Virus record (IMG/VR): IMGVR_UViG_3300020731_000615
Coordinates: 1-35,961 of that record
Reading direction: 5' to 3' (one strand)
DNA: 35,961 nt
DNA from: a virus
Shown: positions 2,019-24,851 of the stretch, in pieces
Numbering within the stretch: the stretch's first letter is position 1
Layout: every line of letters starts with the position of its first letter
The notes under the pieces: model-generated
Database searches by the model: none
Told to the model about the DNA's origin: nothing
The model's input: the letters and a program-made list of their open reading frames with translations, nothing else
Translations under genes and position numbers: made by a program

Positions 2019-2984
2019 ATGTCAATGAACTTTAGCACAATACCACTCAAAGATATAACTCGTTTTGGACAACAAACTATGTTAGATCGTCCTTTATTTA
2101 ACATTAGTTGGATATTGGGACGGTTTTGTAATTATAAATGTAGTTACTGTTGGCCTTATGCTAGAACTGACAAGCCAGATCACTTGCCGCTTGAAGTATA
2201 TAAATCTACTGTAGATGAGATTAAGCGCCAAGCACGAGCTAATGGGTTCAACCAGTTCCATTGGTCGTTCAGCGGAGGTGAGCCGACTGCTTATAAACAG
2301 TTACTCGATTTGATTAAACATTTAGATGAGACAGTAAGTCCCTACCAAAGTATACACATGACAACTAATTTGTCACCAGGATCTAAATGGTGGAAGAGCT
2401 GGTGTGATATCACAGGAAGCCTACAGCGTCGTAGTGTTACAGCCAGTTACCATTCTGAGTTTGCCAAAGAACAAGAGTTCGGTGATAAGTGTTTGCAGTT
2501 AATGAATGAAACAGTTCATGTGACTGTTAACCAGGTTATGGTGCCAGAAAAGTTTTACGAAACTCTAGAACGCTGTGAACGCCTTCGTGCTCGCGGAATC
2601 AATGTTACACTAAAACCACAGAGCAATGATACTGCTACTGCTATTGTAGACGGATACAGCGAAGACATGATCAAGATCATGCAAGATGACTTCGCTCAGC
2701 AAGAAGGGTTCCAAATACGATTAACTGACGGGACTACTAACTATTACATAGATCAAGCCGAGCGATTTAATGCACTAGGATTTAATAGTTTCACCAATTG
2801 GACTTGTAATAGCGGCTATCAGAGTGTTATAATAAGAGGTAACGAGGTCAAGAGAGCATATAGCTGTCATGATACACCCTTAGGAACTTTGGAAAATTTT
2901 ACTTTATTTTCTAATCCTAAAAGATGTACAACACCTAGATGTGTTAGCTCAGCTGATAGCAAAATACCAAAATGTATAAATTAG
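2019..2984 (+). CDS. Radical-SAM protein with SPASM-like C-terminus
   Basis: A 321-residue radical-SAM enzyme. CNYKCSYC places the cluster cysteines at C37, C41 and C44, and SFSGGEPT (83-90) is the SAM-binding GGE motif. The C-terminal third carries C263, C283, C303, C308 and C319, consistent with an auxiliary Fe-S cluster of SPASM or twitch type. The same plan (WxC near the middle, then a cysteine-rich tail) recurs in the genes at 7027 and 8044. It opens a six-gene plus-strand operon and overlaps the next gene by 13 bases. The start is either 2019 or the ATG two codons later; no clear ribosome-binding site decides. The substrate is unknown. Confidence 0.9.
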   Translation: MSMNFSTIPLKDITRFGQQTMLDRPLFNISWILGRFCNYKCSYCWPYARTDKPDHLPLEVYKSTVDEIKRQARANGFNQFHWSFSGGEPTAYKQLLDLIKHLDETVSPYQSIHMTTNLSPGSKWWKSWCDITGSLQRRSVTASYHSEFAKEQEFGDKCLQLMNETVHVTVNQVMVPEKFYETLERCERLRARGINVTLKPQSNDTATAIVDGYSEDMIKIMQDDFAQQEGFQIRLTDGTTNYYIDQAERFNALGFNSFTNWTCNSGYQSVIIRGNEVKRAYSCHDTPLGTLENFTLFSNPKRCTTPRCVSSADSKIPKCIN

Positions 2985-3961
2985 AAGATATAAGAGATGT
3001 ACATCTAGAACTAACTAGCAAATGTCAAGCACGTTGCCCTATGTGCCCACGGCGCATCAGCGGAGGTATACTCAATCCCCTAATAACTCTAAATGAAATA
3101 ACTCTAGAACAATTTAAAGAATGGTTCCCAGTTACATTCATTCAACAGTTAGATAGTTTGTTCATGTGCGGAAATTTAGGTGATCCTATAATTGCACAAG
3201 ACTGTTTAGAAATATTTCAATATCTGAGAGATACTAATCCTACAATTCGTCTAAGTATGCACACCAACGGTAGTGCTAGAAATAAATCATGGTGGCAATC
3301 TCTAGCAGAAACAAAAGTTAAAGTTACATTTGGTATTGATGGAAGTTTACAAATTACTCATAGTGCTTATAGAATAGGAACTGACTTAGATAAAATTTTA
3401 GAAAATGCCCAAGCATTTATTACGGCTGGTGGCGATGCTCGATGGGACATGCTAGTGTTCGGGCATAACGAACATCAGATAGCTGCCTGCAGAAAACTTA
3501 GCGAAGACCTAGGCTTTACAGAATTTAGAACTAAACATACTAGTAGATTTACCGACGATAGTTTAACTGTATTAGACGATGCTGGCAAGCCTATGCATGT
3601 GTTGTTTCCTACAGAAACTAGTAAGGCAATGATTTCAAAAGTTAAAGAAGCACAAGAAGATCACTTGCCTACTATAAGCTGTAAGGCGCAAGCAACCCGC
3701 ACACTTTATGTTAGCGGTACAGGTAATGTTAGCCCGTGCTGTTGGTTAGATTTAGAATGGTATCTACCTAATCACAAATCACGCATAGACTATATGAGCA
3801 AGATAGAAGAGTTCCCTAATCTGCATAATCAAACGTTTAAAGAAATTTTTGACAGCAACTTCTTTAGTAAGATACAAGGTTGTTGGACCGAAAACGGTCT
3901 AAGAGAATGTAGTAAACAATGCGGTAAGTTTAACAAGTCAGGAGCTCAATTTGTTAATTGA
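2972..3961 (+). CDS. Radical-SAM protein, CPMCPR type (paralogue of 4540)
   Basis: A 329-residue radical-SAM enzyme. KCQARCPMCPR gives C18, C22 and C25 as the 4Fe-4S ligands. Where most families have GGEP, this one has MCGNLGDP (65-72). TNGSARNKSWW and GIDGSLQITHSAYRIGT follow the usual barrel pattern. C-terminal cysteines (SCKAQ, SPCCWLD, GCW, ECSKQCG) could hold an auxiliary cluster. It is a clear paralogue of the gene at 4540: both share NPL, GDP, TNGS-R, WW, DG, H-YR-GT and HNEHQ blocks. It overlaps the genes on both sides (13 and 11 bases). No product is known. Confidence 0.9.
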   Translation: MYKLEDIRDVHLELTSKCQARCPMCPRRISGGILNPLITLNEITLEQFKEWFPVTFIQQLDSLFMCGNLGDPIIAQDCLEIFQYLRDTNPTIRLSMHTNGSARNKSWWQSLAETKVKVTFGIDGSLQITHSAYRIGTDLDKILENAQAFITAGGDARWDMLVFGHNEHQIAACRKLSEDLGFTEFRTKHTSRFTDDSLTVLDDAGKPMHVLFPTETSKAMISKVKEAQEDHLPTISCKAQATRTLYVSGTGNVSPCCWLDLEWYLPNHKSRIDYMSKIEEFPNLHNQTFKEIFDSNFFSKIQGCWTENGLRECSKQCGKFNKSGAQFVN

Positions 3962-4547
3962 TACAGAACATTTGCATCACTGGATGCAAGCCATCCGCCA
4001 AAGTCCAGATCCTATAAGAACTATGGATGCATTTTGGTCTGGTCAACTTCGTAGCAAAGAATGGCTTATTAAGAATTTACGTAAACACGTTAATAAGGTT
4101 GTTACTATAGACATACACGGAGGTTGGGTAGGCACTCTTGCTAGTATGCTGTTTCAAAGTGATATATACGTTACTTCCATTCGAAGTGTTGATATAGATC
4201 CTAGTTGTGAACCTATCGCTATTAATATGAACAAGCTGGAAGAAATACAAGGCAAGTTCAAAGCAGTTACAGCTGATATGTGTAGTATTCGCAGTGATGC
4301 GGATGTTATTATCAATACCAGCTGTGAGCATATAACACAAGAAGAATATGAACTATGGTTAAGCGGGCATCCGCAGAACAGCATTATAGTTTTGCAAAGT
4401 AACAACTATCAAATACCAGAACATATTAGAATCGCCAATAGCTTAGAAGAATTTAAAGAACAAAGTAATTTAGACATTCTTTTTGCGGGCGAGTTGGAAT
4501 TACCATTATATACCCGCTGGATGCTTATAGGAAAGAAAAATGTTTAA
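3951..4547 (+). CDS. Class I SAM-dependent methyltransferase-like protein
   Basis: A 198-residue protein with a Rossmann methyltransferase pattern: a first motif VVTIDIHGGWVGTLA (50-64), an acidic end of strand 2 in SVDIDPSCEPIA (79-90), an acidic ADM (108-110) in the position of motif III, and DADVIINTSCEHI (116-128) in the motif IV position. The glycine-rich loop is degenerate (HGGWVG rather than GxGxG). It sits between two paralogous radical-SAM genes, overlapping them by 11 and 8 bases, so it is cotranscribed and probably translationally coupled. It may methylate an intermediate of the same pathway. The fold is likely; the substrate is unknown. Confidence 0.65.
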   Translation: MLIDTEHLHHWMQAIRQSPDPIRTMDAFWSGQLRSKEWLIKNLRKHVNKVVTIDIHGGWVGTLASMLFQSDIYVTSIRSVDIDPSCEPIAINMNKLEEIQGKFKAVTADMCSIRSDADVIINTSCEHITQEEYELWLSGHPQNSIIVLQSNNYQIPEHIRIANSLEEFKEQSNLDILFAGELELPLYTRWMLIGKKNV

Positions 4548-5625
4548 CTTTAATGAACTTAAAAGTGTTCACGTGGAGATATCCAATCGATGCCAAGCGT
4601 CTTGTCCTATGTGCCCTCGTAACATACACGGCGGCATAGAAAATCCATTGTTGAATATAAACGAATGGACCTTAAGCGATTTTATAAAAATATTTCCAAT
4701 AGATATACTAGAGCAACTTGATACTATTAATTTCTGTGGAAACTTTGGCGATCCTTTAATGAACGCTGATCTTGTTGACATGTGCCAATATGTTAAAGAC
4801 ACCACGCCCGATGTTAGGATTGAAATTCATACTAACGGTAGTTTGAGATCTTCTGCTTGGTGGAAAAATTTATACAATGCACTTCCTGTTCGCCATATAG
4901 TAGTATTTGCGCTCGATGGGCTGGCAGATACACACAGTCTGTATCGTGTTGGTACTAACTATGATTTAATTTTAAAGAACGCTAAAACATTTATAGATGC
5001 AGGCGGACTTGCAGAATGGATGTTTATTAGATTTAAACACAACGAACATCAGGTCGGTGCCGCCGAGACTGTGGCTAAACAGATAGGATTTAAAAAATTT
5101 ACGGTAAAAAACAGCAGACGACATGCTCGTCCATTTCCAGTAGTTGATAATCAGGGAACGGTTTTATATAATCTAGAACAGCCGTCTGACAGCACTGTTA
5201 AGTTTGTAAGTAAACAGGATATAGCAGGGCATCAAAATTGGCCTAATGCAGATAAGATCAATTGTGTGGCAATTAAAGATAAAGAATTGTTTATCGATGC
5301 ACACTATCAACTAAGCCCCTGCTGTATGATCGGTGCCTTCCTACATACAAACTACGATGTTGATTTATTAAAATCATATAATTTGTTTCAAGAGGATTCA
5401 GTCGTAGAGGAAGGTGAACGAGTACGACAGCAGGTTCTAGGATTTCCAAGATTAAACGTGTTAGAAACAGGATTACGTAAAATTGTTGAAACAGATCAGT
5501 GGCAAACGATGTGGCAACAGAAGTGGCAGGAAAAATCTAGTTCAACTTGTATAATCATGTGCGGACCTCACAGTCCTTTTATAAGTATAGACAATCAAAA
5601 AATTAAGGTAGAGCAACATGGATAA
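4540..5625 (+). CDS. Radical-SAM protein, CPMCPR type (paralogue of 2972)
   Basis: A 361-residue radical-SAM enzyme with RCQASCPMCPR (C18, C22, C25) and FCGNFGDP in place of GGEP, exactly as in the gene at 2972. It keeps HTNGSLRSSAWW, ALDGLADTHSLYRVGT and FKHNEHQVGAAETVAKQIGF. The C-terminus has SPCCMIG and CIIMCG cysteines that may bind a second cluster. It is about 30 residues longer than its paralogue, mainly in the region after residue 270. It overlaps the methyltransferase-like gene and the following twitch-type gene by 8 bases each. The pair looks like a duplication with the methyltransferase-like gene between the copies. Confidence 0.9.
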   Translation: MFNFNELKSVHVEISNRCQASCPMCPRNIHGGIENPLLNINEWTLSDFIKIFPIDILEQLDTINFCGNFGDPLMNADLVDMCQYVKDTTPDVRIEIHTNGSLRSSAWWKNLYNALPVRHIVVFALDGLADTHSLYRVGTNYDLILKNAKTFIDAGGLAEWMFIRFKHNEHQVGAAETVAKQIGFKKFTVKNSRRHARPFPVVDNQGTVLYNLEQPSDSTVKFVSKQDIAGHQNWPNADKINCVAIKDKELFIDAHYQLSPCCMIGAFLHTNYDVDLLKSYNLFQEDSVVEEGERVRQQVLGFPRLNVLETGLRKIVETDQWQTMWQQKWQEKSSSTCIIMCGPHSPFISIDNQKIKVEQHG

Positions 5626-7030
5626 AGTATTTTGGATGAAACACGAAAACAGTGAACTAGCCAGTTGGCAACAACAGTTAGAGCAGGTAACTGGTACAGC
5701 ATCATTTTGTGTTATTCCATGGATACATCTTGCAACTAGACCCAACGGTGATGCACGTATCTGTTGTGTGGCAAATGCATCAGGATCGTATTCCGGAGAT
5801 TATGGTGTAGGGCTTGTTAAGAAAGAAGACGGTGATCCTAGTAACTTCAGTAACGAATTACCTAGTCAAGTATTCAACAGCACCTACATGCGTTCTGTAC
5901 GTAAACTAATGCTAGAGGGAAAAATTCCTAGTAGCTGTACAAAATGTTTTGAAGAAGAGTCTAACGGAATTGTCAGCAAACGTATTTGGGAAACTGGTGC
6001 TTGGCATTTAGATAAACTTGATATCCCCGAATTGATTAATAACACAGAAGAAGACGGCACTGTTCCTTATAAATTACAATACTTGGATCTTAGACTTGGA
6101 CATACTTGTAATTTAAAATGTATCATGTGTAGTCCGCATGACAGTAGTATGTGGGTGCCGGATCACAAAAAAGTATTTCCTATATTCCAAAGTCCTTTGA
6201 TTAAAAAACAAATGGGTTGGGATCCGAAAGAATTTAATAACTACTGGCATGAGAACCCTGCCTTCTGGGAAGAAATCTATGCTCAGATACCTAATATTCG
6301 ACAGTTGTATTTTGCTGGCGGTGAACCTTTGATCATTAAAGAACATAAGATTTTCTTAGAAGAGATTGTTCGCAGGGGCTACGCTGGACAAATACATCTG
6401 CGTTATAATACAAATGTCTTAATGCTGGATGACTCAATTATTGAACTATGGAAAAATTTTAAAGTAGTTAAAGTTGGAGTAAGTTTGGATGGTATGGACG
6501 ATCGCAATCACTACATACGTTTTCCAAGCGATTGGGATACCATTGTGCAAAATTTGCACAAACTAGACAACACTCCCGACAATATCCATGTTACTATTGC
6601 ACTAGCCGCACAAATTTTAAACATCAAACATATTCCAGACTTTATAAAATGGAAAGTATCTAGCGGTTTTAAAAAGATAAACAAACAAGTAAATGCCAGC
6701 GGATATACGCAAGGCGGCGGATTGATAGGTGTACATTTGTTGTGGATTCCTACATGGCTAAGTCTACGTGTTCTGCCCAAAGAAGACAAGTTAGAAGTTC
6801 GTAGAAAATTTGAAGAGCTTAAACTTTGGTTAGAAGAAAATAATAAAGATGACGAATCTCTAGGTAAGAACCCTTGGGGATGGAAACGTTGGGAAGGTAT
6901 ACTTGATTGGATGGACGAAGAAGATGACACCCATCTGCTTCCGGATTTTAGAGAATATATTACTACTCTAGATCAACAACGCAAAACAGATTTTACTAAA
7001 ACGTTCCCTGAGCTTGCTCATTTGCTATGA
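5618..7030 (+). CDS. Twitch-domain radical-SAM protein
   Basis: A 470-residue two-part protein. The N-terminal twitch-like domain has C31 (FCVIPWIHLATRPNGDAR), CC at 49-50 and CTKCFEEE (107-114), a cysteine set for an auxiliary Fe-S cluster placed before the barrel. The radical-SAM domain follows with HTCNLKCIMC (C164, C168, C171), YFAGGEPLI (231-239), RYNTNVL and VSLDGMDDRNHYIRFPSDW. This matches the family of radical-SAM proteins with an N-terminal twitch domain; a second member is at 8939. It overlaps both neighbours (8 and 4 bases). Related proteins act on peptides, amino acids or sugars, but nothing here fixes the substrate. Confidence 0.92.
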   Translation: MDKVFWMKHENSELASWQQQLEQVTGTASFCVIPWIHLATRPNGDARICCVANASGSYSGDYGVGLVKKEDGDPSNFSNELPSQVFNSTYMRSVRKLMLEGKIPSSCTKCFEEESNGIVSKRIWETGAWHLDKLDIPELINNTEEDGTVPYKLQYLDLRLGHTCNLKCIMCSPHDSSMWVPDHKKVFPIFQSPLIKKQMGWDPKEFNNYWHENPAFWEEIYAQIPNIRQLYFAGGEPLIIKEHKIFLEEIVRRGYAGQIHLRYNTNVLMLDDSIIELWKNFKVVKVGVSLDGMDDRNHYIRFPSDWDTIVQNLHKLDNTPDNIHVTIALAAQILNIKHIPDFIKWKVSSGFKKINKQVNASGYTQGGGLIGVHLLWIPTWLSLRVLPKEDKLEVRRKFEELKLWLEENNKDDESLGKNPWGWKRWEGILDWMDEEDDTHLLPDFREYITTLDQQRKTDFTKTFPELAHLL

Positions 7031-8064
7031 CACCTATAAAGATAGTATCAACTCAGCAATCTCACATCTTAGCAATAAGATGGAATCCTAATAATCTTTG
7101 TAATTATAAGTGTGAGTATTGCTGGCCGGGCAGTAATGCCGGGGACTATCGATCTCCTGCCGATTTAGATCTTATCATTAAAAACTTTAATCATCTTATT
7201 GAACGTTATCGGACAAAGCTAGGCAAGACTAAAATACATCTTAGCCTTGCGGGCGGTGAACCTACTCTGTGGCGAGATCTTGCTGAGTTTATTGAAGCAG
7301 TTAAAAAAGAAAATGACATCTACTTTAGTTTGATCAGTAACGGTTCGAGAACATTGCGCTGGTGGAAAGAGTACGGACATTTAATAGACAATGCCCATTT
7401 GTCGTATCATATATCGCAAGCAGATCCTGACCATATGATTGCTGTAGCAGATACGTTATTCGAACTTAATAAAAAAGTAACTGTTAAAGTCCTGATGGAC
7501 AGGAAGCATTGGCAAGAGGGATTGGATGTCATTGACTATATGAAAAAGAATAGTCGTCACAAATGGATCCTTATGACTTGCGAAGTCATTGAACCAGAAG
7601 TATCAAGCATTAAAGGTATCAAAGTTATAGATGCGAGTGATATTCAACTGACAAGGAAACAAAAAAGTTTTTTAAAAAATCCATTGAAGCGGATTCCTGA
7701 TCTAGTGTGGCTATGGAAAAATAGAAAACTTATATTTGGCGGCCAAATGCGCATCTATGAAAGTGTAGCGACTCTTGATAATGGCAAAACAATTAAAGCC
7801 AAATCTAATACCTATATTAATAAAAACTGGACCAGCTTCGAAGGTTGGAACTGTGACATAGGCTTAGATAATGTTTATATTAATTGGACTGGAGAAATAC
7901 AAGGATCGTGTCAGCAGACAATTTATGGATTAGATTATAGTTTCAACATTCTAGACAAAGACTTTGTAGCAAAGTTTGATCCTGAATTCAAATCATCTAT
8001 ATGTTCTATTAAGAACTGCTTGTGTAGTTGCGAAACACATCAATCAAAGTTTAGACTTAGTTAG
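7027..8064 (+). CDS. Radical-SAM protein with cysteine-rich C-terminus
   Basis: A 345-residue radical-SAM enzyme: NLCNYKCEYCWP (C25, C29, C32), HLSLAGGEPTLW (71-82), then LISNGSRTLRWW. Its C-terminus has WNCDIGLDNVYINWTGEIQG followed by several cysteines (SCQQT, SICSIKNCLCSCE). This is the same tail plan as the genes at 2019 and 8044. It starts inside the end of the 5618 gene (4-base overlap, ATGA) and is the last gene of the first plus-strand operon. Its 3' end overlaps the convergent minus-strand gene by 21 bases, with no terminator in between. Confidence 0.9.
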   Translation: MTPIKIVSTQQSHILAIRWNPNNLCNYKCEYCWPGSNAGDYRSPADLDLIIKNFNHLIERYRTKLGKTKIHLSLAGGEPTLWRDLAEFIEAVKKENDIYFSLISNGSRTLRWWKEYGHLIDNAHLSYHISQADPDHMIAVADTLFELNKKVTVKVLMDRKHWQEGLDVIDYMKKNSRHKWILMTCEVIEPEVSSIKGIKVIDASDIQLTRKQKSFLKNPLKRIPDLVWLWKNRKLIFGGQMRIYESVATLDNGKTIKAKSNTYINKNWTSFEGWNCDIGLDNVYINWTGEIQGSCQQTIYGLDYSFNILDKDFVAKFDPEFKSSICSIKNCLCSCETHQSKFRLS

Positions 8065-8946
8065 TGGGATATCTGCCGCGCAGGTACAGAAATTACGGTC
8101 ACAAGTTACGGGTTCGCTAGGAGCAACGAAGTTGCCTTCATATATGTTGCCAAGACTACCACCGACTCTACAAGTCGCTCTGTGTACATCTCCGTCCCAA
8201 TTTATCATTAGGCTTTCTATACCTGCGTTGCAGGTCCAACCTTTAAATTGATTCTGATGATTCTTAATCATGTCATTAGCATGATACAATAGTTGTGCGT
8301 ACTTGTCATCTAACCACACTACTGTATTTGCTTCAACTGTAGACTCCATTGATTTAATAAAATCTAAATCGTTAGCATTATATCTCATGTCGTCAAAGAG
8401 ATCATGATCTCCTTTGGTCCAGCGTATACGTCTAACAGTGTTTGGTATATTGCCTAACTGACATCTAGCTCTTAATTGCACTGCCGCAGGCATATGGTCG
8501 TGATGTGCCATTATCTGTGCTATAACTTTTACTGTTGATAATTTGTTAATGCTCTCTACTGTGTTGAATACACGTTTCCAATCATACTCTAAATGTATAC
8601 TGAATACATATTGATCAACAGGAAGACCTGCATAGAATTCATACGGTCGTGTTCCATTAGTTGTTACATTAATCCAACTGATGCCTACATGTTTAGCATA
8701 CTTAACTAGTTCGTCAAACTTAGGATGGACACAGGGCTCCCCTCCTGTGAAACTTAATCGAATAGGCTTACCCAATGTTACTAGTTTATCTATAGTAGAT
8801 TTTAAAATTTCTATATCTGTGTGCTGGCTTGTGTTGTCGTGTATTTCACTAGGGCAGTAACTACAATCATAGTTACAGCGTTTGCCAAGATTCCATTCAA
8901 TCTTAATACTACCTTGATGCGGCCAACGGCTAGTTACTTTAAACAT
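8044..8946 (-). CDS. Radical-SAM protein with cysteine-rich C-terminus
   Basis: A 300-residue radical-SAM enzyme read from the ATG at 8946. The frame extends to 9000, but this start gives the 8-base overlap typical of the cluster and aligns with the paralogues. KRCNYDCSYCPS gives C24, C28 and C31, and LSFTGGEP (64-71) the SAM-binding motif. The tail WTCNAGIESLMINWDGDVHR, CRVGGSLGNIY and CDRNFCTCAA matches the plan seen at 7027. These two genes end tail to tail with 21 shared bases and may derive from an inverted duplication. It is the last gene of the minus-strand operon that runs from 11649. Confidence 0.9.
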   Translation of the reverse strand: MFKVTSRWPHQGSIKIEWNLGKRCNYDCSYCPSEIHDNTSQHTDIEILKSTIDKLVTLGKPIRLSFTGGEPCVHPKFDELVKYAKHVGISWINVTTNGTRPYEFYAGLPVDQYVFSIHLEYDWKRVFNTVESINKLSTVKVIAQIMAHHDHMPAAVQLRARCQLGNIPNTVRRIRWTKGDHDLFDDMRYNANDLDFIKSMESTVEANTVVWLDDKYAQLLYHANDMIKNHQNQFKGWTCNAGIESLMINWDGDVHRATCRVGGSLGNIYEGNFVAPSEPVTCDRNFCTCAADIPLTKSKL

Positions 8947-16386: not shown

Positions 16387-17186
16387 TAATATGTCTCCAA
16401 ATGATCAATACCTAAAGTCTTACGAAATTCTTCAGTGAACTTGCCATCAATTCGTAATCCATAACTTTGTTCCATGATACGCTCGCCGCCATGCCAGTCT
16501 ACATCATTCCACCATGCGGCACGAGTGTTCAAGTATGTTTTATCCTTAGTTTCAGGATCCCACAAGTAAAACGCTTTTTTAGTATTAGGACGTATGTGTA
16601 TAAACTCATTGCGATGCGGTTTAACTACATCAACTCCGTTTTTGGCATCTAAGTCTCTGTGTTCAAATGGAATGCCATCTGCTTCACAATGAAAGAATAT
16701 AACACGGCCAATATCTTCAAACACTGTACCTACTAAACTTTCAACCCACTTAACTACATTAGGAAAGTACTCTGCTTCGGGAGTTAGTTTACGTGGCGCA
16801 GTACGGTCATCCCACGAACCTTCTTCCCACAAATAGTAGTAAATGTAAGGATCGTATGCACCCATAGCCATTTTCAAATAACGTGTAAACTTGTTACGTT
16901 GTTGGAAGTTTTTAAAATCTGTCGGCATTAATTTTATGCCAGCTTGATATATAGGATCGTCTTTAGGTAGTTCCATAAACTCATCCATGGACTGATAGAT
17001 AGGTTTCCAACTGAGTTTGTAACTCATATTATCAAATGTAAACCCTGGTTTCATCCACGTGCCTTCTTTAGCGTACTCACGTGCTAGAGCAAAGCCTGTT
17101 AATATTTCAGGTTGTAGTTTATCAAACGTCTCCATGTCTAAGAACGGAGCCATATCTATATAAGTTTGTCCGTTAATCCCTCGCAT
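16386..17186 (-). CDS. 2OG-Fe(II) oxygenase-like protein (paralogue of 24126)
   Basis: A 266-residue protein. The start at 17186 is chosen because AAAGGA lies 6 bases upstream and because it aligns with the start of the paralogue at 24126 (GQTYIDMAPFLD versus GQIYIDLEKHVD). The iron site is GIPFEHRDLD (H176, D178), with WHGG (H232) and YGLRIDGKF (R245) later. Between them, FIHIRPNTKKAFYLWDPETK and YLNTRAAWWNDVDW are shared nearly block by block with the paralogue. It overlaps the upstream radical-SAM gene by 14 bases and the downstream oxygenase by one base. Confidence 0.78.
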   Translation of the reverse strand: MRGINGQTYIDMAPFLDMETFDKLQPEILTGFALAREYAKEGTWMKPGFTFDNMSYKLSWKPIYQSMDEFMELPKDDPIYQAGIKLMPTDFKNFQQRNKFTRYLKMAMGAYDPYIYYYLWEEGSWDDRTAPRKLTPEAEYFPNVVKWVESLVGTVFEDIGRVIFFHCEADGIPFEHRDLDAKNGVDVVKPHRNEFIHIRPNTKKAFYLWDPETKDKTYLNTRAAWWNDVDWHGGERIMEQSYGLRIDGKFTEEFRKTLGIDHLETY

Positions 17187-18237
17187 CATATTTCCTTTGA
17201 TATTTCTCTGGTATTGTATCATACAATGGTAAATTTTTATTTACAGCACCATCACGCAGTATAACTTGATGTACTAGTGGGCTGACTGGTTTACCAGGAA
17301 GCATATCTGCCCACGACTCAGTTTGATCTTCTTCTAGGTCAATTGTACGCACATCTGGCCATTGAATTATTTTAACTAATATGCCATTAATACGTAATGG
17401 ATAATGTACACGTATTCCGTAAGACGGTTCGTACTTGTAGTCCCAACCTTTACGTTTGCATATTTCAATTACCATGTCTACTAATTCTGACAAGTATATT
17501 TTTTCTTCACCCGGATGGCGTCCTATGTCTGTACCTACACGCACTCTGTAATTGTGTGGACTAAGAGTTTTTCCAAATTCTTGTATTTCGTCTAGACAAT
17601 ATTCTAATTGAGCAATAGTTTCAAGTGTATAGCTAACATTCTTAATTGGCATGTTTAATTTCATGCAATTATCAATGCCTTCCATTTGTTTTTTTCTAAC
17701 AGTATGCCCTTGATAGTCAGGATGGTTTAATCCTATCGTCCAAAACACATTAGACATATCTGCAAATTGTTGAGCATATTCATAGTCTGATAGATAAACT
17801 CCGTTGGTTAATATCATTATAGCTCGAGGCTTACCTGGTAACGATTGTATAGCACGACAAAGTTCAGGCAAGTCTTTTCTAGTAGTCGGTTCAGCACCCA
17901 TTAGAGCAATAGCATAACCATCGTCTTCCCATACTCGTATAATATCTAGTATGTTTTCTATGCTAGGATCTTTGCTCATGTTATCTGGAATTTGATAACA
18001 ATGTGGGCAATTTAAATTACAACGGTTAGTAATATCCAAACAGTATGTTTTGTTAGTTGGCCTATCATACTTGTAGTTAAGATAAAAGTTAGCATTAGGT
18101 TCAACTAGATGCTCACTTTCACCGTGCCATTTACATTTTTTTGAAAGCCATATAGATTCATCTCTTTCAAACAGGACAGCGGGAACGTGTCTGTAACAAT
18201 GTTCACATACTGATGTTGTATCGTGTATTTTATTCAT
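17173..18237 (-). CDS. Radical-SAM protein with N-terminal Cys motif, Tes/GrsAB-like layout
   Basis: A 354-residue protein. The N-terminal region has CEHCYRHVPA (C11, C14) and KKCKWHGE (C35, H38), the short metal-binding module found before the barrel in a group of radical-SAM enzymes that includes tetraether lipid synthase (Tes) and GDGT ring synthases. The barrel has DITNRCNLNCPHCYQ (C73, C77, C80), and GAEPT (113-117) replaces GGEPT. The C-terminal KPVSPLVHQVILRDGAVNK is shared with its tandem paralogue at 18230, which it overlaps by 8 bases. The layout suggests C-C bond or lipid-type chemistry, but only at family level; function is unproven. Confidence 0.85.
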   Translation of the reverse strand: MNKIHDTTSVCEHCYRHVPAVLFERDESIWLSKKCKWHGESEHLVEPNANFYLNYKYDRPTNKTYCLDITNRCNLNCPHCYQIPDNMSKDPSIENILDIIRVWEDDGYAIALMGAEPTTRKDLPELCRAIQSLPGKPRAIMILTNGVYLSDYEYAQQFADMSNVFWTIGLNHPDYQGHTVRKKQMEGIDNCMKLNMPIKNVSYTLETIAQLEYCLDEIQEFGKTLSPHNYRVRVGTDIGRHPGEEKIYLSELVDMVIEICKRKGWDYKYEPSYGIRVHYPLRINGILVKIIQWPDVRTIDLEEDQTESWADMLPGKPVSPLVHQVILRDGAVNKNLPLYDTIPEKYQRKYDARD

Positions 18238-19264
18238 GTCTATATTTTTCAGGTACTGTATCGTACAACATCTGCCCTTTGTTAACTGCTTGATCTCTTA
18301 GTATAACTTGATGTAGCAATGGACTCATTGGTTTTCCTGGAACTATGCTAGCCCACGATTCACTTTGTACTTCCTCTAAATCGATAGTCCTCACATCACA
18401 CCATTTAATAAATTTATGTTCAATTCCATTTATACGCACAGCATAGTGTGTGCGATTACCGCCTACGGGATCAGGCTCCCATGTCCATCTATTGTCTTGA
18501 CAAAACTGTTCGGCAACTGCAACTAACTCAGACAAGTATAGTTCTTTGAAGTCACCCTCTGGCACGCGGCCAATCTCAACACCTAATTGTATTCTAGCAT
18601 TGATCTTAAACTTTTGTACTTCGTGCATTACATCTGTTAGCTGTTCTAAATTGGCTAATGTATAGGTCAGTGTCTTAACATCTAATCCTAGCTTAATACA
18701 GTTTTCTAATCCTTCCATCTGCTTAGTACGTATCTGTCCGCCATTGTAGTCAGGATGATTAAGTCCAAATGTCCATTTTAAATTTGGTAATCCTTCAAAA
18801 CGACTTACATAATCCCATTTGGCTAGATACACTCCATTTGTAACGATTATAACATTTCTACGCTTGATGGGCAAGTTGTGTATAGCTCGAACTAGTTCAG
18901 GCAAGTCTCTACGCACAGTGGGTTCAGCACCAACTAAACTAACTGGCAATCCATTGTCTGGCCAGCTCAACACTTCAGATAGCAAATAATCTATACTAGG
19001 ATCCTTGCTGTTATTATCGGGCATTTGATAACAATGCGGGCAGTCTAAGTTACAGCGATTGGTAATGTCTAACCAATATGAACTTGGCCTACGTCTTTGA
19101 TATTGTTGACCTTTATAGAAATTTGTGTTAATATCTAGTATTGCTTCTTGGTATCCGTGCTTCGGGCAAGTTTTGCCCAACATCATTTTTCCATCCTTTT
19201 CAAATCGTTCAGCTGGTATGTGACGATAACATGTTTCACATAAGGATAGTGTTTGATTTAGCAT
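18230..19264 (-). CDS. Radical-SAM protein with N-terminal Cys motif (tandem paralogue)
   Basis: A 344-residue protein built like the gene at 17173: LCETCYRHIPAERFEKDG (C9, C12), GKTCPKHG (C33, H36), DITNRCNLDCPHCYQMPDN (C71, C75, C78), VGAEPTVRRDLPELVRAI, FGLNHPDYNGGQIRTKQMEG and KPMSPLLHQVILRDQAVNK. The two proteins are similar along their whole length, so this is a tandem duplication. It is the first gene of the minus block and starts 18 bases after a TATAAATT box in the palindromic intergenic region 19265-19303. The two may act as a heterodimer or on two steps; neither can be told from sequence. Confidence 0.87.
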   Translation of the reverse strand: MLNQTLSLCETCYRHIPAERFEKDGKMMLGKTCPKHGYQEAILDINTNFYKGQQYQRRRPSSYWLDITNRCNLDCPHCYQMPDNNSKDPSIDYLLSEVLSWPDNGLPVSLVGAEPTVRRDLPELVRAIHNLPIKRRNVIIVTNGVYLAKWDYVSRFEGLPNLKWTFGLNHPDYNGGQIRTKQMEGLENCIKLGLDVKTLTYTLANLEQLTDVMHEVQKFKINARIQLGVEIGRVPEGDFKELYLSELVAVAEQFCQDNRWTWEPDPVGGNRTHYAVRINGIEHKFIKWCDVRTIDLEEVQSESWASIVPGKPMSPLLHQVILRDQAVNKGQMLYDTVPEKYRHE

Positions 19265-19278
19265 ATTATTTTTTTGGT

Positions 19279-19290
19279 TATAAATTTATA
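19279..19290. promoter_or_regulatory. Palindromic TATAAATTTATA, possible bidirectional late promoter
   Basis: The 39-base divergent gap between the genes at 19264 (minus) and 19304 (plus) contains a perfect 12-base palindrome. Read on either strand it gives TATAAATT, one base from the T4 late box TATAAATA. The box ends 17 bases before the plus-strand ATG and 18 bases before the minus-strand ATG. Confidence 0.5.
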
Positions 19291-19303
19291 GATAATTAGT
19301 TAT

Positions 19304-19993
19304 ATGAATTACGAATACTACTACAATAATGTTCCTGGTCAGGGGCTTTGTCGGAACAATCTTATTTACACTAGTTTAATCAGCCACGATAAAAAAGTTT
19401 TTGTTCAATGGTACCATAATGATACTGAATATCATAAAGATAAGAACCAAGTAGTTGATCCTGCTAAAATGGAAGAGAAGTGGTTGCGCGAAGTAAACTA
19501 TTTGACTCAAATGCGTAATGCATATCCACATCTGGTTCCTACAATTAAGAACATAGATTTAGATGCTAGAAAGTTATATTTAGAAATAGACGGACCTGAC
19601 TTTTGGGAGCAAGCAGGATGTGATATAGCAAACTATGACAGTGTGCTACCCGATTGGCAAGATCAGATGCTTGACATCATTAAGACACATAAACAATTAG
19701 GATGGCACAAGTACAGTATGCATCCTAGCAGTTACTTTGTAGTAGATGGCAAACTAAAAAGTATCAACTATTTCTTTACTTACAAAAATACCGAATCTAA
19801 TATTAGTATACAAGATGTTGAAAGTCATATCTATTCTACTAGACAAGATGAAATGCGAAAACATTTAGACACGCTAGGAATTGAATGGAACAAACCTCAA
19901 CCATGGGCAGTAATGGATCAACTATGCTGGGCAAGTTTTAATACAAACTATCCAACAGATTTTATTGAACGAGTAAAAGAATGTATAAAATAA
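19304..19993 (+). CDS. Kinase-fold-like protein (paralogue of 13891)
   Basis: A 229-residue protein similar in layout to the gene at 13891: an opening NVPGQGLCRNNLIYTSLI, a strand VFVQWYHND, a helix WLREVNYLTQMRNAYP, the block DLDARKLYLEIDGPDFWE, DWQDQMLDIIKTHKQLGWHK, and SMHPSSYFVVDGKLKSINYF. The last segment lies where kinase-like folds keep the HxD-N catalytic loop and metal-binding D; both are replaced (SMHPSS, IN). It could be a pseudokinase or a binding protein. It overlaps the GNAT-like gene by 13 bases. Confidence 0.5.
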   Translation: MNYEYYYNNVPGQGLCRNNLIYTSLISHDKKVFVQWYHNDTEYHKDKNQVVDPAKMEEKWLREVNYLTQMRNAYPHLVPTIKNIDLDARKLYLEIDGPDFWEQAGCDIANYDSVLPDWQDQMLDIIKTHKQLGWHKYSMHPSSYFVVDGKLKSINYFFTYKNTESNISIQDVESHIYSTRQDEMRKHLDTLGIEWNKPQPWAVMDQLCWASFNTNYPTDFIERVKECIK

Positions 19994-20520
19994 TTCCTTG
20001 GTCATCTGATTTGGATCTATCTGAATTTTATGCAGATGCTGGCCGTAGAGGATTTGTAAACAACTCAAGTCAAAAGGCAATGATAGATTGTTTTAAAAAC
20101 GAAAAGCATTGGCAGGTATGGATTCTTTATTACAACGATCGTGCTGTGGGAAGCGTTGCGGCACACAGCATGGAAGAAGGCTATCGTATCTGTGCTAGAA
20201 CATGTGTACTATCTGATCTGCTACCATTAAACACGCTACGCACTAGAAATCAAATTATAACGCATCAGCATGTTACAGCACAGTATCTAATGCCAGCGTG
20301 TATAGCTTGGGCGCCACCTTGGGAAGATCTGTATATAACTAGTCACCCTAGCGAAGTAGGGACACAGCGACTAGTACATACTATATGGGGTCCTAGTCTA
20401 GAAAAGACAGGTGTATTAACTAGAGCCTTTGAAAAAGAATATCGCGGGCATTTACAAACATTTTGGAGATTGAATACCAATGTTTTCCTGCAACAACTAG
20501 ATTCTGTACCTAAAATTTAA
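19981..20520 (+). CDS. GNAT-like acetyltransferase, tentative
   Basis: A 179-residue protein. A central hairpin, HWQVWILYYNDRAVGSVAAH (about 42-62), resembles strands 2-3 of GNAT acetyltransferases, and ICARTCVLSDLLPLN follows in the strand 4 position. However, the region that should hold the acetyl-CoA pyrophosphate loop (ITHQHVTAQYLMPACIAWAP) has no clear Q/RxxGxG/A motif. The C-terminal part GVLTRAFEKEYRGHLQTFWR is unassigned. It follows the kinase-like gene with a 13-base overlap and ends in a 4-base convergent overlap with the TauD-like gene. It is real as a gene, but the family is uncertain. Confidence 0.5.
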   Translation: MYKIIPWSSDLDLSEFYADAGRRGFVNNSSQKAMIDCFKNEKHWQVWILYYNDRAVGSVAAHSMEEGYRICARTCVLSDLLPLNTLRTRNQIITHQHVTAQYLMPACIAWAPPWEDLYITSHPSEVGTQRLVHTIWGPSLEKTGVLTRAFEKEYRGHLQTFWRLNTNVFLQQLDSVPKI

Positions 20521-21374
20521 TCAACGTATCCAAAGACCATTCTGTGTAGTAAGCGGTCTCTTATTTTTTCAAAAGCCCAACGTTTGTGTATTCCAAACCA
20601 TTGGTCTCCAATTACTACATCACCGTCTTGCCAATCGTGGTGGTAACAATATTTGTCCTGTATTAAATGATCATGCAATGGTTTAGCTATAGCTAGACTT
20701 TCTTCTCTGGTCATTCCGTCATATCTTTCTAATTGATAAAAAGAATGATAAATTCCAAGTTTACCACTAGGATGCGGTATAACTACATTTTGTAATACTG
20801 GATTTGGATCAATCTCAATTCCGCCTGCTATAGGACCTCTAAAGTCTGCCGTAGCATAATAGATTCCTTTAAGATCTTTAATCTGATCCTTAGTGGTCTG
20901 ATCGAGGTCATTATATCCTAGTACGCTGTTAGTATAGCTGGTTCTTGATCCTGCTGTACCAGTTACTCCGTATAACCATACTAGTGGTCCTCGTTGTAGC
21001 CCGTGATTGCTGTTGAGAAGATGCGGTTGGTTATTGTGCCATTCCATGTCGTCTACGTAGCCTGCTGTTCCTGGCTTACCATGTTCATTAAGAGAACCAG
21101 TTACTCTTGTAATATGTCCATTTGGATCGTTAACTAAATCAGCAGTTTCATTTTCAAATTCATCTTGCCCCGGAGCATACTCAGTAGTAACGTTGCCAAA
21201 CATATATCCAACGTCTAATTGATCTTTCACTGTTAGCGATTGATTTCTAAAAACAATTAGTGTGCTGGCTTTTAATAGATCCGATGCCTGTTTGATATCA
21301 TCTTTAGTTGCTGTTCTTAAATCAAAATCATCAACTATAATTGCCCAGCCGTTTTCGTGTATATGATGTTTCAT
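20517..21374 (-). CDS. TauD-type 2OG-Fe(II) dioxygenase-like protein
   Basis: A 285-residue protein of TauD/clavaminate synthase type: KASTLIVFRNQSLTVKDQL near the N-terminus, DDMEWHNNQPHLL at the first metal motif (H113), and GDVVIGDQWFGIHKRWAF at the distal end (H263) with R278 in HRMVFGY as a possible 2-oxoglutarate contact. The family norm at the first motif is HxD or HxE; here the codons read H-N-N, so the carboxylate ligand is replaced by asparagine. Non-haem iron halogenases lack this carboxylate, but there it is Ala or Gly, so no such role is claimed. It is a single-gene minus unit converging on the GNAT-like gene. Confidence 0.8.
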   Translation of the reverse strand: MKHHIHENGWAIIVDDFDLRTATKDDIKQASDLLKASTLIVFRNQSLTVKDQLDVGYMFGNVTTEYAPGQDEFENETADLVNDPNGHITRVTGSLNEHGKPGTAGYVDDMEWHNNQPHLLNSNHGLQRGPLVWLYGVTGTAGSRTSYTNSVLGYNDLDQTTKDQIKDLKGIYYATADFRGPIAGGIEIDPNPVLQNVVIPHPSGKLGIYHSFYQLERYDGMTREESLAIAKPLHDHLIQDKYCYHHDWQDGDVVIGDQWFGIHKRWAFEKIRDRLLHRMVFGYVD

Positions 21375-21456
21375 TGAGTATTCTCTAATTTAATTATGCT
21401 ACATTTTAATAAAGATATATAACTGTAGACAAACGTATTTATGATAGGAAAATAAC

Positions 21457-22902
21457 ATGGTAATGAAGTTTCGAACCGATAAGAAACAACCAATTGTGTT
21501 TTGTATTTTGGATGTTTCAGATAACTGCCAAAGTACAGAAGCTACAACTGTTTGCAATAATTTATCTGACTTTCTTATAAATCGGTTTGATCTACATGGC
21601 TATGATATTTTTATTAGTAAAGACGAAGATGACTTGCTTCAATCTGTAGCAACTGAAGATTATACTCACGCTATAGTTATTTCATCGGGCACTAGTTTAG
21701 GTTTGTCAGATAGACTGTTTGATGCTGTAGAAGATCAATGCAAAGAAGATTTCTTTATAGCCGGCCACATACTCGATAGAGGCGATCATCCCTACTATAA
21801 GAAAAATGCCTGTTTTGAATTACATCAACAATTTTATATAATTAATCTAGAACAGTATAAAGAAATTGGTTGCCCTAGTGTAGGGCAAGAAGAGTGGGTA
21901 GAGTACCAACAAATTGCACCTATTCGTAGTAAAGAATGCCTGTATGGTGATCCGGAGATCCCAGTATGGATGTCTAAGGGCACTGAGCTTAAAACATATT
22001 CTGTTAAGCTACATGGATGGAACATTTTAAATGTTGCATTAGAACATGATAAAAAACTACTAACATTGAATCAAAGAATTCGTGACAGCAAAAAATATCT
22101 ATATTATGAATATGACCACGTGTTTTTACGACATCTAGCAGATATAAAACAATTACAATTTTTTGGAATGAATTTCTTTGCTGGCTGGAATTCTGATCAA
22201 CTGCGTAAGGACTTACCGTTTGACGGACCTGTTGAACAGTACGCTAGTGTAGGCATTGGATTTAATTGGATTAAAAATTTAGAAACAGTAGGATTCTCAA
22301 ACAATACCAAAGTTATCTTTACAGACATCAACTATAACTGTTTAATGTTTATGAGAAAGATGGTCGAAGAATGGGACGGCAAAGACTACGATGAATTCTA
22401 TTGGACTCATAAACCTATGTTGCCCAACAATCCTCCGCACATTCCCCCTTCATATAAAGATCAAATAAAAGAACAGTGGCAAAAGTTTTTAACCACGATC
22501 GACGATTGGGATTCATTATGGAGCAAGGTCAAAAGTTTAACCTATGATTATATCCTTATAGACTACACAGCATCTTATAATTTTGATTGGCTAGAGCCGG
22601 GTAAGAAAACATTACTTAATCTGAGCGACCTGTACAATCATAGTCCATTTATTGCTACTACTAGTTTAAAATATCGAATCAGTGCAGAAAATAATTTACT
22701 CCAAAAACTTAAAAATAAAGATCCTAACATAACGCTGTTGATTACATCAAGAGCAGCCGACGGATTCTGGAAATCTAAAATTGAGCAACGTATAGATAAA
22801 GTTAGTAATTTTTCTTATACTGATATTACAGATTTAAAAATACCTAGTTGGCACGAACTTGACTGGAAACATAACAGTGAACGTCCACTAGGAGTCAACT
22901 GA
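21457..22902 (+). CDS. Large unknown two-part protein
   Basis: A 481-residue protein without a firm family. AGGA lies seven bases before the ATG at 21457. Residues 1-150 read like a Rossmann or glycosyltransferase-like half (VFCILDVSDN, THAIVISSGTSLGLSDRLFD, FFIAGHILDRGDHPYY, FYIINLEQYKEIGCP). Residues 250-400 have a methyltransferase-like order: EQYASVGIGFNWIKNL, KVIFTDINYNCLMFMRK and YDYILIDYTASYNFDW. The middle contains ELKTYSVKLHGWNIL. It precedes an Asp/Asn-hydroxylase-like gene with a one-base overlap (TGATG). It may be a sugar- or peptide-binding scaffold or an enzyme; the domain ideas are low confidence. Confidence 0.7.
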   Translation: MVMKFRTDKKQPIVFCILDVSDNCQSTEATTVCNNLSDFLINRFDLHGYDIFISKDEDDLLQSVATEDYTHAIVISSGTSLGLSDRLFDAVEDQCKEDFFIAGHILDRGDHPYYKKNACFELHQQFYIINLEQYKEIGCPSVGQEEWVEYQQIAPIRSKECLYGDPEIPVWMSKGTELKTYSVKLHGWNILNVALEHDKKLLTLNQRIRDSKKYLYYEYDHVFLRHLADIKQLQFFGMNFFAGWNSDQLRKDLPFDGPVEQYASVGIGFNWIKNLETVGFSNNTKVIFTDINYNCLMFMRKMVEEWDGKDYDEFYWTHKPMLPNNPPHIPPSYKDQIKEQWQKFLTTIDDWDSLWSKVKSLTYDYILIDYTASYNFDWLEPGKKTLLNLSDLYNHSPFIATTSLKYRISAENNLLQKLKNKDPNITLLITSRAADGFWKSKIEQRIDKVSNFSYTDITDLKIPSWHELDWKHNSERPLGVN

Positions 22903-23546
22903 TGAAAGAATACTATCACTCAGACGGTCGCTATTTAAAATTAGATATAGCACTACCCTATAAAGAAATGTGTGCTGAGGCATTTGCATTACTTGATAAA
23001 TTTAGTCCTCACAGAGGCGATGAAGATTCGCATGGGTGGGAAAGTTTAACTATACACGGGCTTGGCTGGAATAAACATGAGAATTATGACGTGTATGGAT
23101 ATAAGAAAGGTAAAGATGCTAGCAATGATATGCACTGGACAGAAATTGCAGACCTATGCCCTATAACAACTAAATGGTTAAAAGAAGTATTTCCTTCTAA
23201 TAAGTACGGCCGTGTTAGATTTATGTTGCTACGTGCTGGCGGGAAAATTGCCTTACACAGCGATAGTAGTATAAAGCTGATTGAGAATATCAATGTTGCT
23301 CTTAATAATCCATTAGGTTGTAAATGGATATGGGGTGACGGTGAAGAATTAATTATGGAACCCGGAGGAGTGTATGCTATGAATCTACACTATCATCATT
23401 CTGTAATTAACAACAGTAATGAAGATCGTATGCATATGATTATTGCTAGACACGATGCTACAGATGAATGGAAACAACTAGTAGAAAAGGCAGCAGCCAA
23501 CCAAGGAATTACTGGCCAATATATTGTTATTGACGAACTACCTTAA
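22902..23546 (+). CDS. Aspartyl/asparaginyl beta-hydroxylase-like 2OG oxygenase
   Basis: A 214-residue protein with the typical late core of this family: GRVRFMLLRAGGKIALHSDS (H119, D121), IENINVALNNPLGCKWIW, then MEPGGVYAMNLHYHHSVINN (distal H165 or H166) and RMHMIIARHD, which provides the arginine that contacts 2-oxoglutarate. The N-terminal half (GWESLTIHGLGWNKHENYDV) is probably the substrate-side insert. The ATG overlaps the preceding stop by one base. Known relatives hydroxylate Asp/Asn side chains or small molecules. It ends in a 4-base convergent overlap with another oxygenase. Confidence 0.82.
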   Translation: MKEYYHSDGRYLKLDIALPYKEMCAEAFALLDKFSPHRGDEDSHGWESLTIHGLGWNKHENYDVYGYKKGKDASNDMHWTEIADLCPITTKWLKEVFPSNKYGRVRFMLLRAGGKIALHSDSSIKLIENINVALNNPLGCKWIWGDGEELIMEPGGVYAMNLHYHHSVINNSNEDRMHMIIARHDATDEWKQLVEKAAANQGITGQYIVIDELP

Positions 23547-24124
23547 TTTCTTACAAAAGCAATCATAAATGCTAGGCTAATTCTGTCTGAATTTACGGTG
23601 TTTGTTTTAACACCGTGTGCTAGCCATCCAGGGAATAATAATAATTTACCAACCTCTGGCTTATGCTCGTGTCGCGTTGTAAATTTTTGATAACACAATG
23701 ATGACACTGCTGGGCTCACTGGAGTCTCAAAAAATATATCACCATCATTTCCAGTAGTTTGAAAATAGTAGCACCCAGCGATGTCATATTCTCCGTGACT
23801 ATGTATATGCGTATGTCCACCAGTTGAATTTTTAACGATCCACGACTTTCTTTTATATTCTCTTTTTTGAAATCCAATTTCTTTACAGTATTGTTCAAGA
23901 TGTTGATCAATTGCCTGTGCTAGATTATTCATTTGCTTTTCAGAAAGTATGTCGGCTTCGACACTTGTAGTTTCAAAAGTTTTGCCCCATTGATAATAAT
24001 TAACAGAATCATCATATTGAACATTAACTAATGCATTAGACATTTCTGTTTCTACAGCATCTTTGTTTTCTAAAAAACAACTATATATAGGGGTCGGAAA
24101 TAGATTTTCAATTTTGTAAGTCAT
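23543..24124 (-). CDS. 2OG-Fe(II) oxygenase of the FPTPI phage/cyanophage type
   Basis: A 193-residue protein with the opening NLFPTPIYSCFL that marks a family of putative 2OG oxygenases common in marine phages. The iron site lies in GGHTHIHSHGEYDIAGCYYF (about 102-121), with the distal histidine in LLLFPGWLAHGVKTN and an arginine in SDRISLAFMI. The strand GDIFFETP is typical. It starts one base after the end of the 24126 gene, with which it forms a two-gene minus block next to the tail fibre. The substrate is unknown for the family. Confidence 0.82.
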   Translation of the reverse strand: MTYKIENLFPTPIYSCFLENKDAVETEMSNALVNVQYDDSVNYYQWGKTFETTSVEADILSEKQMNNLAQAIDQHLEQYCKEIGFQKREYKRKSWIVKNSTGGHTHIHSHGEYDIAGCYYFQTTGNDGDIFFETPVSPAVSSLCYQKFTTRHEHKPEVGKLLLFPGWLAHGVKTNTVNSDRISLAFMIAFVRN

Positions 24125-24125
24125 C

Positions 24126-24851
24126 TTACACTATCATTCCTGTTTTACGTTTAAATTCGTCTGTAAAATATCCGTTTATTCGTAAGGTATAAGTAGGGCG
24201 CCAAATAGGTAATCCGCCATGCCAATCTCTTTCATTCCAATAGGCTACCCTAGTATTCATAAAAGTACGTTCGCCCGTTTCTGGATTGAGTATATAAAAT
24301 GGTCTATCAGTATCAGTTTTTACATGAATAAATTCTGGTAAGAACCCGGGAGTTTCGTAGCCGTCAGCTGGATCGTAATGTTCCCACGGAATGCCGCCTG
24401 CATCTACTGATATTAAATTTACGCTATGCAAATTTTTTAAAATTCCAGATGTGACAAATCCCTGCACCCATTTTAATAACCCTGGAAAATGTTTAGTGAC
24501 GTTCTCATTAACTCCATCTTCATTAATCAATTGAAAGAGACGATAGTAGTCATATGCTCCGTAGGCATTTTTTAAATAGTCAGTTAATTGATTATATGTT
24601 AGATCTTTTCCTGCTATTTTAAATGGATCATCATCTGGCAATGCTTTCCAATTATCAGTTACTTCAAACAATGGATTAACTTTATAACCTTGTGCATGAG
24701 GATGCATAGTGCCATTAGGTACTGATTGTAGTCCATCATATGCAAAATCTCTAGCAAGAGCTATTCCCCTAGAAATTTCTAAATGTAAAGAATCAAACCC
24801 TGTTAAGTCTACGTGTTTTTCTAAATCTATATAAATTTGTCCGTGTATCAT
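24126..24851 (-). CDS. 2OG-Fe(II) oxygenase-like protein (paralogue of 16386)
   Basis: A 241-residue protein sharing its whole layout with the gene at 16386: GQIYIDLEKHVDLTGFDSL, ISRGIALARDFAYDG, LKNAYGAYDYYRLF, PGLLKWVQGFVTSGIL, GGIPWEHYDPADGYETPGF (H158, D160), FIHVKTDTDRPFYILNPETG, MNTRVAYWNERDWHGG (H211) and YTLRINGYFTDEF (R224). The metal and 2-oxoglutarate residues are all conserved between the copies. It is 25 residues shorter, mostly around residues 60-130. A TATAAATT box lies at 24882-24889, 30 bases before its ATG and in the gap after the tail fibre. Confidence 0.8.
   Translation of the reverse strand: MIHGQIYIDLEKHVDLTGFDSLHLEISRGIALARDFAYDGLQSVPNGTMHPHAQGYKVNPLFEVTDNWKALPDDDPFKIAGKDLTYNQLTDYLKNAYGAYDYYRLFQLINEDGVNENVTKHFPGLLKWVQGFVTSGILKNLHSVNLISVDAGGIPWEHYDPADGYETPGFLPEFIHVKTDTDRPFYILNPETGERTFMNTRVAYWNERDWHGGLPIWRPTYTLRINGYFTDEFKRKTGMIV

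Follow-up and report, generated by a model that had tools for sequence, protein, structure and literature searches.

Here we describe an enzyme-rich island in the virus record IMGVR_UViG_3300020731_000615, in which radical S-adenosylmethionine (SAM) proteins and 2-oxoglutarate (2OG)-Fe(II) oxygenases are encoded side by side. The island spans positions 2,019–24,851 (22,833 bases) of the 35,961-base record, which was analyzed in full and is referred to as the window; genes are designated as in Table 1 or by their first coordinate. Its families are linked across related phages as a conserved core interspersed with variable genes, they are under strong purifying selection, and the island adjoins a tail-fibre gene. 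We tentatively regard it as a conserved modular tailoring island whose likeliest substrate is an exposed recognition structure, first of all the fibre or some other surface protein of the virion.

A conserved core recurs across related phages

RS7, a radical-SAM protein with an N-terminal twitch domain, served as the anchor for comparing loci. RS7 as the query recovered 199 viral stretches, 80 of which were kept, and RS10 recovered 35; families of the window were then mapped onto the loci obtained with either protein. Removing RS7 proteins >92% identical and requiring at least 8.5 kb on either side left 35 non-redundant loci. RS6, RS4, RS2/RS3 and the oxygenase OX1 accompany RS7 in all 35, and the pyridoxal-phosphate (PLP) enzyme 10804, the methyltransferase-like MT_3951 and RS1 are present in 31, 30 and 29, respectively, with 32 distinct gene arrangements among these relatives. 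A preliminary description of this DNA had made its case for a common role depend on co-occurrence in related phages, and the core families do co-occur in every one of the 35. A second scan, using a divergent twitch-domain profile, returned at least 574 relatives; the 83 loci examined contained RS2/RS3 (68), MT_3951 (55), RS1 (48) and C35 (45), a family with an invariant DxD that recurs next to MT_3951. The RS7-based and divergent-profile scans share some contigs. A marine scan with a single protein gave two loci, and all 25 large records tested had 7–15 radical-SAM matches each.

Comparison of the window with the closest relatives that allowed measurement gave a ratio of nonsynonymous to synonymous substitution rates (dN/dS) of 0.02–0.19 for each measurable island gene, and a mere 161 of the 22,833 bases are intergenic. 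Such strong purifying selection, together with near-gapless coding, indicates that the island is more than a chance assembly.

Pfam, PHROG and PDB profile searches gave no match for C35. Homology of C35 or MT_3951 to 21457 was considered and rejected, as profile comparison found none. In one locus (L208, 259–4125), a 1,288-residue protein upstream of MT_3951 seems to be made up of C35 (DxD) domains repeated in degenerate form.

Exchangeable cassettes surround the core

Slots between conserved genes vary in content. Between the PLP enzyme and RS7, 29 loci carry an SGNH-like gene, 28 carry nothing and 26 carry a QueC-like PP-loop protein (weak QueC match), while the slot between RS7 and RS6 is empty in 65 loci and holds family C29 in 17 and family C54 in 6. 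Relatives add genes for amidinotransferase-like proteins (a label from reading the sequence; Pfam gave no match), AMP-ligases, halogenase-like proteins, desaturases, hexapeptide acyltransferases and short-chain dehydrogenase-like proteins. These variable cassettes speak for a conserved core to which exchangeable tailoring genes are added, and against a single fixed pathway. The island of a 270-kb relative, G015 (L131, 13571–19049), includes a tryptophan-halogenase-like gene akin to cyanophage halogenases, a class-III-like aminotransferase gene and an amidinotransferase-like gene.

The island borders a tail-fibre gene

In the window, the Mtd_N-domain fibre gene, OX8 and OX7 follow one another on the same strand, separated by 45 bases and 1 base, respectively. 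The succession of fibre and OX8 on the same strand, with a spacing of 46–75 bases, also occurs in four relatives (L018, L022, L023, and L030). In relatives that extend this far, the distance from the outermost island gene to an Mtd_N-type fibre is at most 3 kb at 11/20 edges on the fibre side, compared with 0/18 on the RS1 side (near-identical contigs included), bearing out the earlier remark that the island ends next to a tail-fibre gene. In the marine phage contig C3, the island directly adjoins tail/baseplate genes. The locus is a variable island next to tail fibre genes, the arrangement by which host-recognition clusters are recognized. dN/dS of the fibre was 0.225, compared with 0.02–0.19 for island genes.

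Table 1 Island genes, bordering fibre and flanking oxygenase-like genes of the window.
Feature	Position	Strand	Evidence
RS1, radical SAM, MoaA/viperin-like class	2019..2984	+	PF04055 52 bits; 29/35 non-redundant relatives
RS2, radical SAM with SPASM domain	2972..3961	+	PF04055 and PF13186 over cut-off
MT_3951, methyltransferase-like conserved partner	3951..4547	+	30/35 relatives; 55/83 divergent-profile loci
RS3, radical SAM, same family as RS2	4540..5625	+	PF04055 27 bits vs 29.5; phrog_21308
RS4, radical SAM, N-terminal twitch domain	5618..7030	+	NF033640 402 bits; 35/35 relatives
RS5, radical SAM, viperin/MoaA/QueE-like class	7027..8064	+	PF04055 52.6 bits
RS6, radical SAM	8044..9000	-	PF04055 47 bits; 35/35 relatives
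RS7, radical SAM, N-terminal twitch domain	8939..10201	-	NF033640 323 bits; 199 viral stretches
SGNH hydrolase-like, exchangeable slot PLP/RS7	10188..10811	-	Weak GDSL match; slot analysis
Small fold-type-I PLP enzyme	10804..11649	-	AlphaFold2 pLDDT 90
OX1, Asp/Asn hydroxylase-like 2OG oxygenase	11688..12353	+	PF05118 E 0.0012 (weak Asp_Arg_Hydrox); 35/35 relatives
RS8, B12-binding-like radical SAM	12350..13891	+	PF04055 over cut-off; PF02310 E 1e-4
Kinase-fold protein, degenerate catalytic loop	13879..14586	+	Profile vs kinase structures E 2e-5; alignment
OX2, oxygenase-like (start probably 14579)	14552..15070	+	Profile vs beta-hydroxylase structure E 0.0019
SGNH-like	15036..15860	-	Pfam: no match; 24 loci
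OX3, oxygenase-like	15862..16386	-	Joint profile with OX2 (beta-hydroxylase structure, E 0.0019)
OX4, oxygenase-like, HxD...H motif only	16386..17222	-	hhalign to OX2/OX3 E 0.03
RS9, zinc-ribbon radical SAM, HMPTM/Tes-like	17173..18237	-	PF23545 and PF04055 over cut-off
RS10, zinc-ribbon radical SAM, HMPTM/Tes-like	18230..19264	-	PF23545 and PF04055; PDB 7tol Tes E 2e-22
KIN_19304, kinase-fold protein, 13879 paralogue	19304..19993	+	Alignment; profile
Conserved partner 19981	19981..20520	+	Adjoins KIN_19304 directly in 51/53 loci
TauD-family protein, WHNN at iron site	20517..21374	-	PF02668 91 bits, over cut-off; motif
Two-domain protein: N-terminus GT-A-like (tentative), C-terminus methyltransferase-like	21457..22902	+	AlphaFold2 pLDDT 88; Foldseek
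OX6, Asp/Asn hydroxylase-family oxygenase	22902..23546	+	PF05118 (Asp_Arg_Hydrox) 45.8 bits, over cut-off
OX7, 2OG-Fe(II) oxygenase	23543..24124	-	PF13759 (2OG-FeII_Oxy_5) 60.7 bits; TIGR02466 over cut-off
OX8, OX4 paralogue, 45 bases downstream of fibre gene	24126..24851	-	Alignment
Mtd_N-domain tail fibre at island border, collinear with OX8 and OX7	24897..26168	-	PF18454 over cut-off
2OG oxygenase beyond fibre	29812..30354	-	PF13640 over cut-off
2OG oxygenase-like beyond fibre	30671..31231	-	PF13759 E 3e-4, under cut-off
2OG oxygenase beyond fibre	31508..32161	-	PF13759 over cut-off

Enzyme families of the island

Ten proteins of the window match PF04055, nine of them over the curated cut-off of 29.5 bits, and CxxxCxxC is present in all ten, in agreement with the number read from the sequence beforehand. 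The motif is intact in 83/83 RS4 and 103/103 RS7 homologues. The five types distinguished at that time were also recovered: twitch-domain proteins (5618/8939; NF033640 curated cut-off, 170 bits), zinc-ribbon proteins (17173/18230), a B12-binding-like protein (12350), the SPASM family (2972/4540), in which the SPASM domain was detected in 2972, and three short MoaA/viperin/QueE-like proteins (2019/7027/8044). Of the radical-SAM proteins scanned against NCBIfam, none exceeded the cut-off of a characterised enzyme. The best match of RS5, viperin_w_prok, lay far under its cut-off, as did the score of RS8 against TIGR04479 (PhpK-like). The nearest solved relative of RS10 is the tetraether lipid synthase Tes (PDB 7tol); RS9 and RS10 failed as Tes or TrsS equivalogs, scoring 74–84 bits against NCBIfam cut-offs of 450–490.

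The eight oxygenases proposed beforehand held up to differing degrees. Family cut-offs were exceeded by 20517, 22902 and 23543; weak or profile-level matches were obtained for 11688, 14579 and 15862; and 16386 and 24126 display the motif only. OX2 and OX3 reach a beta-hydroxylase structure solely as a profile (E = 0.0019). Database searches with OX4 and OX8 gave no match, including zero matches for OX4 queried against phages, and the HxD...H region of this pair aligns with the OX2/OX3 profile (E = 0.03). The iron site of the TauD-family protein 20517 may be altered, as its sequence reads WHNN where WHxD is expected; relatives of this protein show HxD as well as other forms at the site. Three additional oxygenase-like genes (29812, 30671, and 31508) lie outside the range of the preliminary description. 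This flank beyond the fibre (29812–32161), seldom conserved in relatives, also encodes a parvulin-type isomerase (31228–31488).

Among the partner proteins, the PLP enzyme proposed earlier was borne out: 10804 has no Pfam match, and its confident AlphaFold2 model has the type-I fold, with Foldseek matches to NifS, HisC and threonine-phosphate decarboxylase (E down to 3e-9). Foldseek matched the model of 21457 to NNMT, LH3 and GT25; the methyltransferase call on this protein holds for its C-terminal half, while the N-terminus is, tentatively, GT-A-like. Of two SGNH calls, 10188 gave a weak match and 15036 went undetected. The kinase-like pair 13879/19304 matches the fold weakly (E = 2e-5), but the usual HxD...N catalytic loop is not conserved. 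A GNAT assignment for 19981 was dropped, as neither Pfam nor structural profiles (PDB) produced a match. MT_3951 had no Pfam family over cut-off and no PDB profile match.

Candidate substrates

Because the set contains no scaffold synthesis, the island should decorate a molecule made elsewhere, and turnover at the slots, together with a fast-evolving fibre gene that forms one border and is collinear with two oxygenase genes, points to an exposed recognition structure as the likeliest substrate. SPASM- and twitch-domain radical-SAM enzymes and Asp/Asn hydroxylases act mostly on peptides or proteins, so the enzyme classes favour a protein or peptide. We infer that these are active enzymes with a common substrate, the fibre. 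In the mechanism we propose, a fixed core of two twitch-domain radical-SAM enzymes, the SPASM-family radical-SAM pair, a small radical-SAM protein and an Asp/Asn-hydroxylase-type oxygenase, usually joined by the PLP enzyme and the methyltransferase-like protein, stands alongside exchangeable cassettes. The oxygenases would put hydroxyls on the virion fibre or another surface protein, the radical-SAM enzymes would add cross-links, methyls or other C–C/C–X bonds, and the outcome would be altered receptor binding or a shielded virion. A bolder version, which we consider rather improbable, is a phage-specific combinatorial system in which the radical-SAM/2OG core and swappable cassettes chemically diversify the receptor-binding fibre or an attached peptide in hundreds of aquatic phages; if true, such diversification would parallel, at the level of chemistry, sequence-based tropism switching. 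The earlier proposal of one modification or biosynthesis pathway acting on the virion surface thus survives in its genetic part, the co-occurrence of the genes and the fibre border, and the single pathway and its target are putative.

Several points weigh against the fibre as the substrate. Adjacency to the fibre could merely reflect a shared insertion site, and T4-like host-recognition clusters are known to gather unrelated genes (PMC7029224). The fibre protein lacks an obvious modification motif, and the PqqD-type recognition element (RRE) domain of ribosomally synthesized and post-translationally modified peptide (RiPP) systems was found in 0/21 records. The amidinotransferase-like, AMP-ligase, halogenase-like and acyl desaturase genes of relatives fit a small molecule equally well. 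Moreover, many loci were recovered via RS7 or RS10, so that presence counts are conditional on these proteins. Weighing all of this, we put the fibre first, a glycan and a small molecule next, and nucleic acid and the absence of a pathway last.

Surface-glycan tailoring, in which the island would add amino, amidino, carbamoyl, methyl or deoxy groups to a host-envelope or virion polysaccharide, for example for superinfection exclusion, is an unlikely alternative. Glycosyltransferases are known in pelagimyophage host-recognition clusters (PMC7029224), the DxD family C35 recurs beside MT_3951, and in the marine relative C3, genes for a GDP-mannose-dehydratase-like epimerase, a carbamoyltransferase and a sulfotransferase-like protein lie in or near the island. 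However, C35 itself has no profile match, no glycosyltransferase or sugar-nucleotide enzyme is firmly recognized in the window apart from the tentative GT-A-like N-terminus of 21457, and sugar markers occur in only 14/116 and 10/83 loci, which led us to reject a glycan biosynthesis island.

We likewise doubt a small-molecule pathway yielding a metabolite derived from a peptide or amino acid and acting in or outside the infected cell, be it in counter-defence, exclusion or host control. Chemistry of the island type is typical of natural-product tailoring, and at least one amidinotransferase-like, AMP-ligase, flavin-halogenase-like, aminotransferase or desaturase gene is found in 27/116 and 15/83 loci. 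Nevertheless, no nonribosomal peptide synthetase, polyketide synthase or carrier protein was seen in the island set. The intergenic bases leave no room for a precursor peptide, and with the RRE domain missing as well, a RiPP cluster was rejected, although a precursor may lie elsewhere.

That no single pathway exists and a hypervariable site has gathered unrelated accessory genes is improbable: accessory cassettes do turn over, and islands of this kind are already known (PMC7029224), but the strongly selected core persists in all 35 non-redundant relatives and recurs at distant loci. Hypermodification of phage DNA or tRNA bases appears very improbable; known pathways include radical-SAM, PLP and 2OG enzymes, a QueC-like family lies inside the island of relatives, and G015 has FolE-like and QueE-like genes (judged by reading sequences), yet the number of enzymes far exceeds the need of known pathways, the border is a fibre gene rather than replication genes, and the thymidylate synthase/dCMP hydroxymethylase family, which supplies base hydroxymethylases, is missing in both the window and the 270-kb relative and was found in only one of 19 related viral records.

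Carrier phages

The carriers are large tailed phages and, where typing was possible, T4-superfamily jumbo phages. The largest relative, G015, comprises 269,730 bases and encodes a T4-type major capsid protein that shares 70–72% identity with its counterparts in jumbo phages, PA5oct among them. An A-type Fe-S carrier (PF01521), encoded in 13/19 related viral records and in two copies in some, would serve the radical-SAM set. Full-length RS7 was found on phage contigs only. A bacterial origin was rejected: among three GTDB relatives of RS7, the sole full-length one lies on a T4-superfamily phage contig that had been binned with bacterial sequences (MED685). The gp23 of this contig matches that of the 270-kb relative at 74%, and its capsid and tail genes also match those of the 270-kb relative. 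Twitch-domain radical-SAM proteins over cut-off occurred in 2/369 gammaproteobacterial genomes, one being the MED685 metagenome-assembled genome; the second had no island within the 40 kb examined. The 108-kb MED685 contig (L128, L145–L150) has genes for capsid, portal-like and baseplate proteins, together with no fewer than eight genes for twitch-domain radical-SAM proteins over cut-off. G015 also has a 4,890-residue open reading frame beside baseplate-like genes (L137–L138, 128666–143338), with a 4,024-residue counterpart in the marine relative.

Relation to described phages

A near-identity search of annotated phages gave no match. A marine T4-like environmental genome, TARA_ERS488813_N000010, resembles the island carriers in that an A-type Fe-S carrier is encoded together with 12 radical-SAM genes (Nishimura 2017, PMC5332604). 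These are given as a gene count among Fe-S genes, and the available part of that report mentions neither oxygenase partners nor a conserved core, slots or a border with a fibre. The pelagimyophage host-recognition cluster (Zaragoza-Solas 2020, PMC7029224) is likewise a hypervariable island with tail fibres, and radical-SAM cassettes tell apart two otherwise similar pelagimyophage genomes; in contrast, it is characterised by abundant glycosyltransferases, its description names no 2OG partners as members, and freshwater pelagimyophages are reported without radical-SAM genes. T4-like cyanophages (Sullivan 2010, PMC3037559) resemble the carriers in having several 2OG-Fe(II) oxygenases per genome and a tryptophan halogenase, but these genes are listed as sporadic, with a proposed role in modulating 2OG/nitrogen signalling, and the accessible portion of the report describes no radical-SAM island.

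The preliminary description had known of no phage system with this set. This holds for the conserved radical-SAM/2OG module as a combined set, of which the open-licence literature searched yielded no description, but parts of it have been published without function (PMC7029224 and, in its available part, PMC5332604). We class the module as a form of the variable host-recognition island known from T4-like phages, with unexplained chemistry. Conserved and restricted to phages, this enzyme set is unusually dense and under strong selection. Action on virions would make it a new layer of phage–host recognition, and action on a metabolite would make it a viral biosynthetic pathway. In both cases, it is a source of numerous uncharacterised radical-SAM and 2OG enzymes with a defined core, and it may put into context the radical-SAM, Fe-S carrier, 2OG oxygenase and halogenase genes that have been published, yet not explained, for aquatic T4-like phages.

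Clusters of remote twitch-domain radical-SAM genes also occur in the Vibrio jumbo phages K566 and K575 (OZ196521, OZ196514), which share this family alone; except for one marginal match, the partner families were not found nearby. Both are cultured 250-kb phages (L124, L125) in which these genes are annotated merely as radical SAM or hypothetical. In K575, QueC-like and QueE-like genes lie near the twitch-domain radical-SAM genes.

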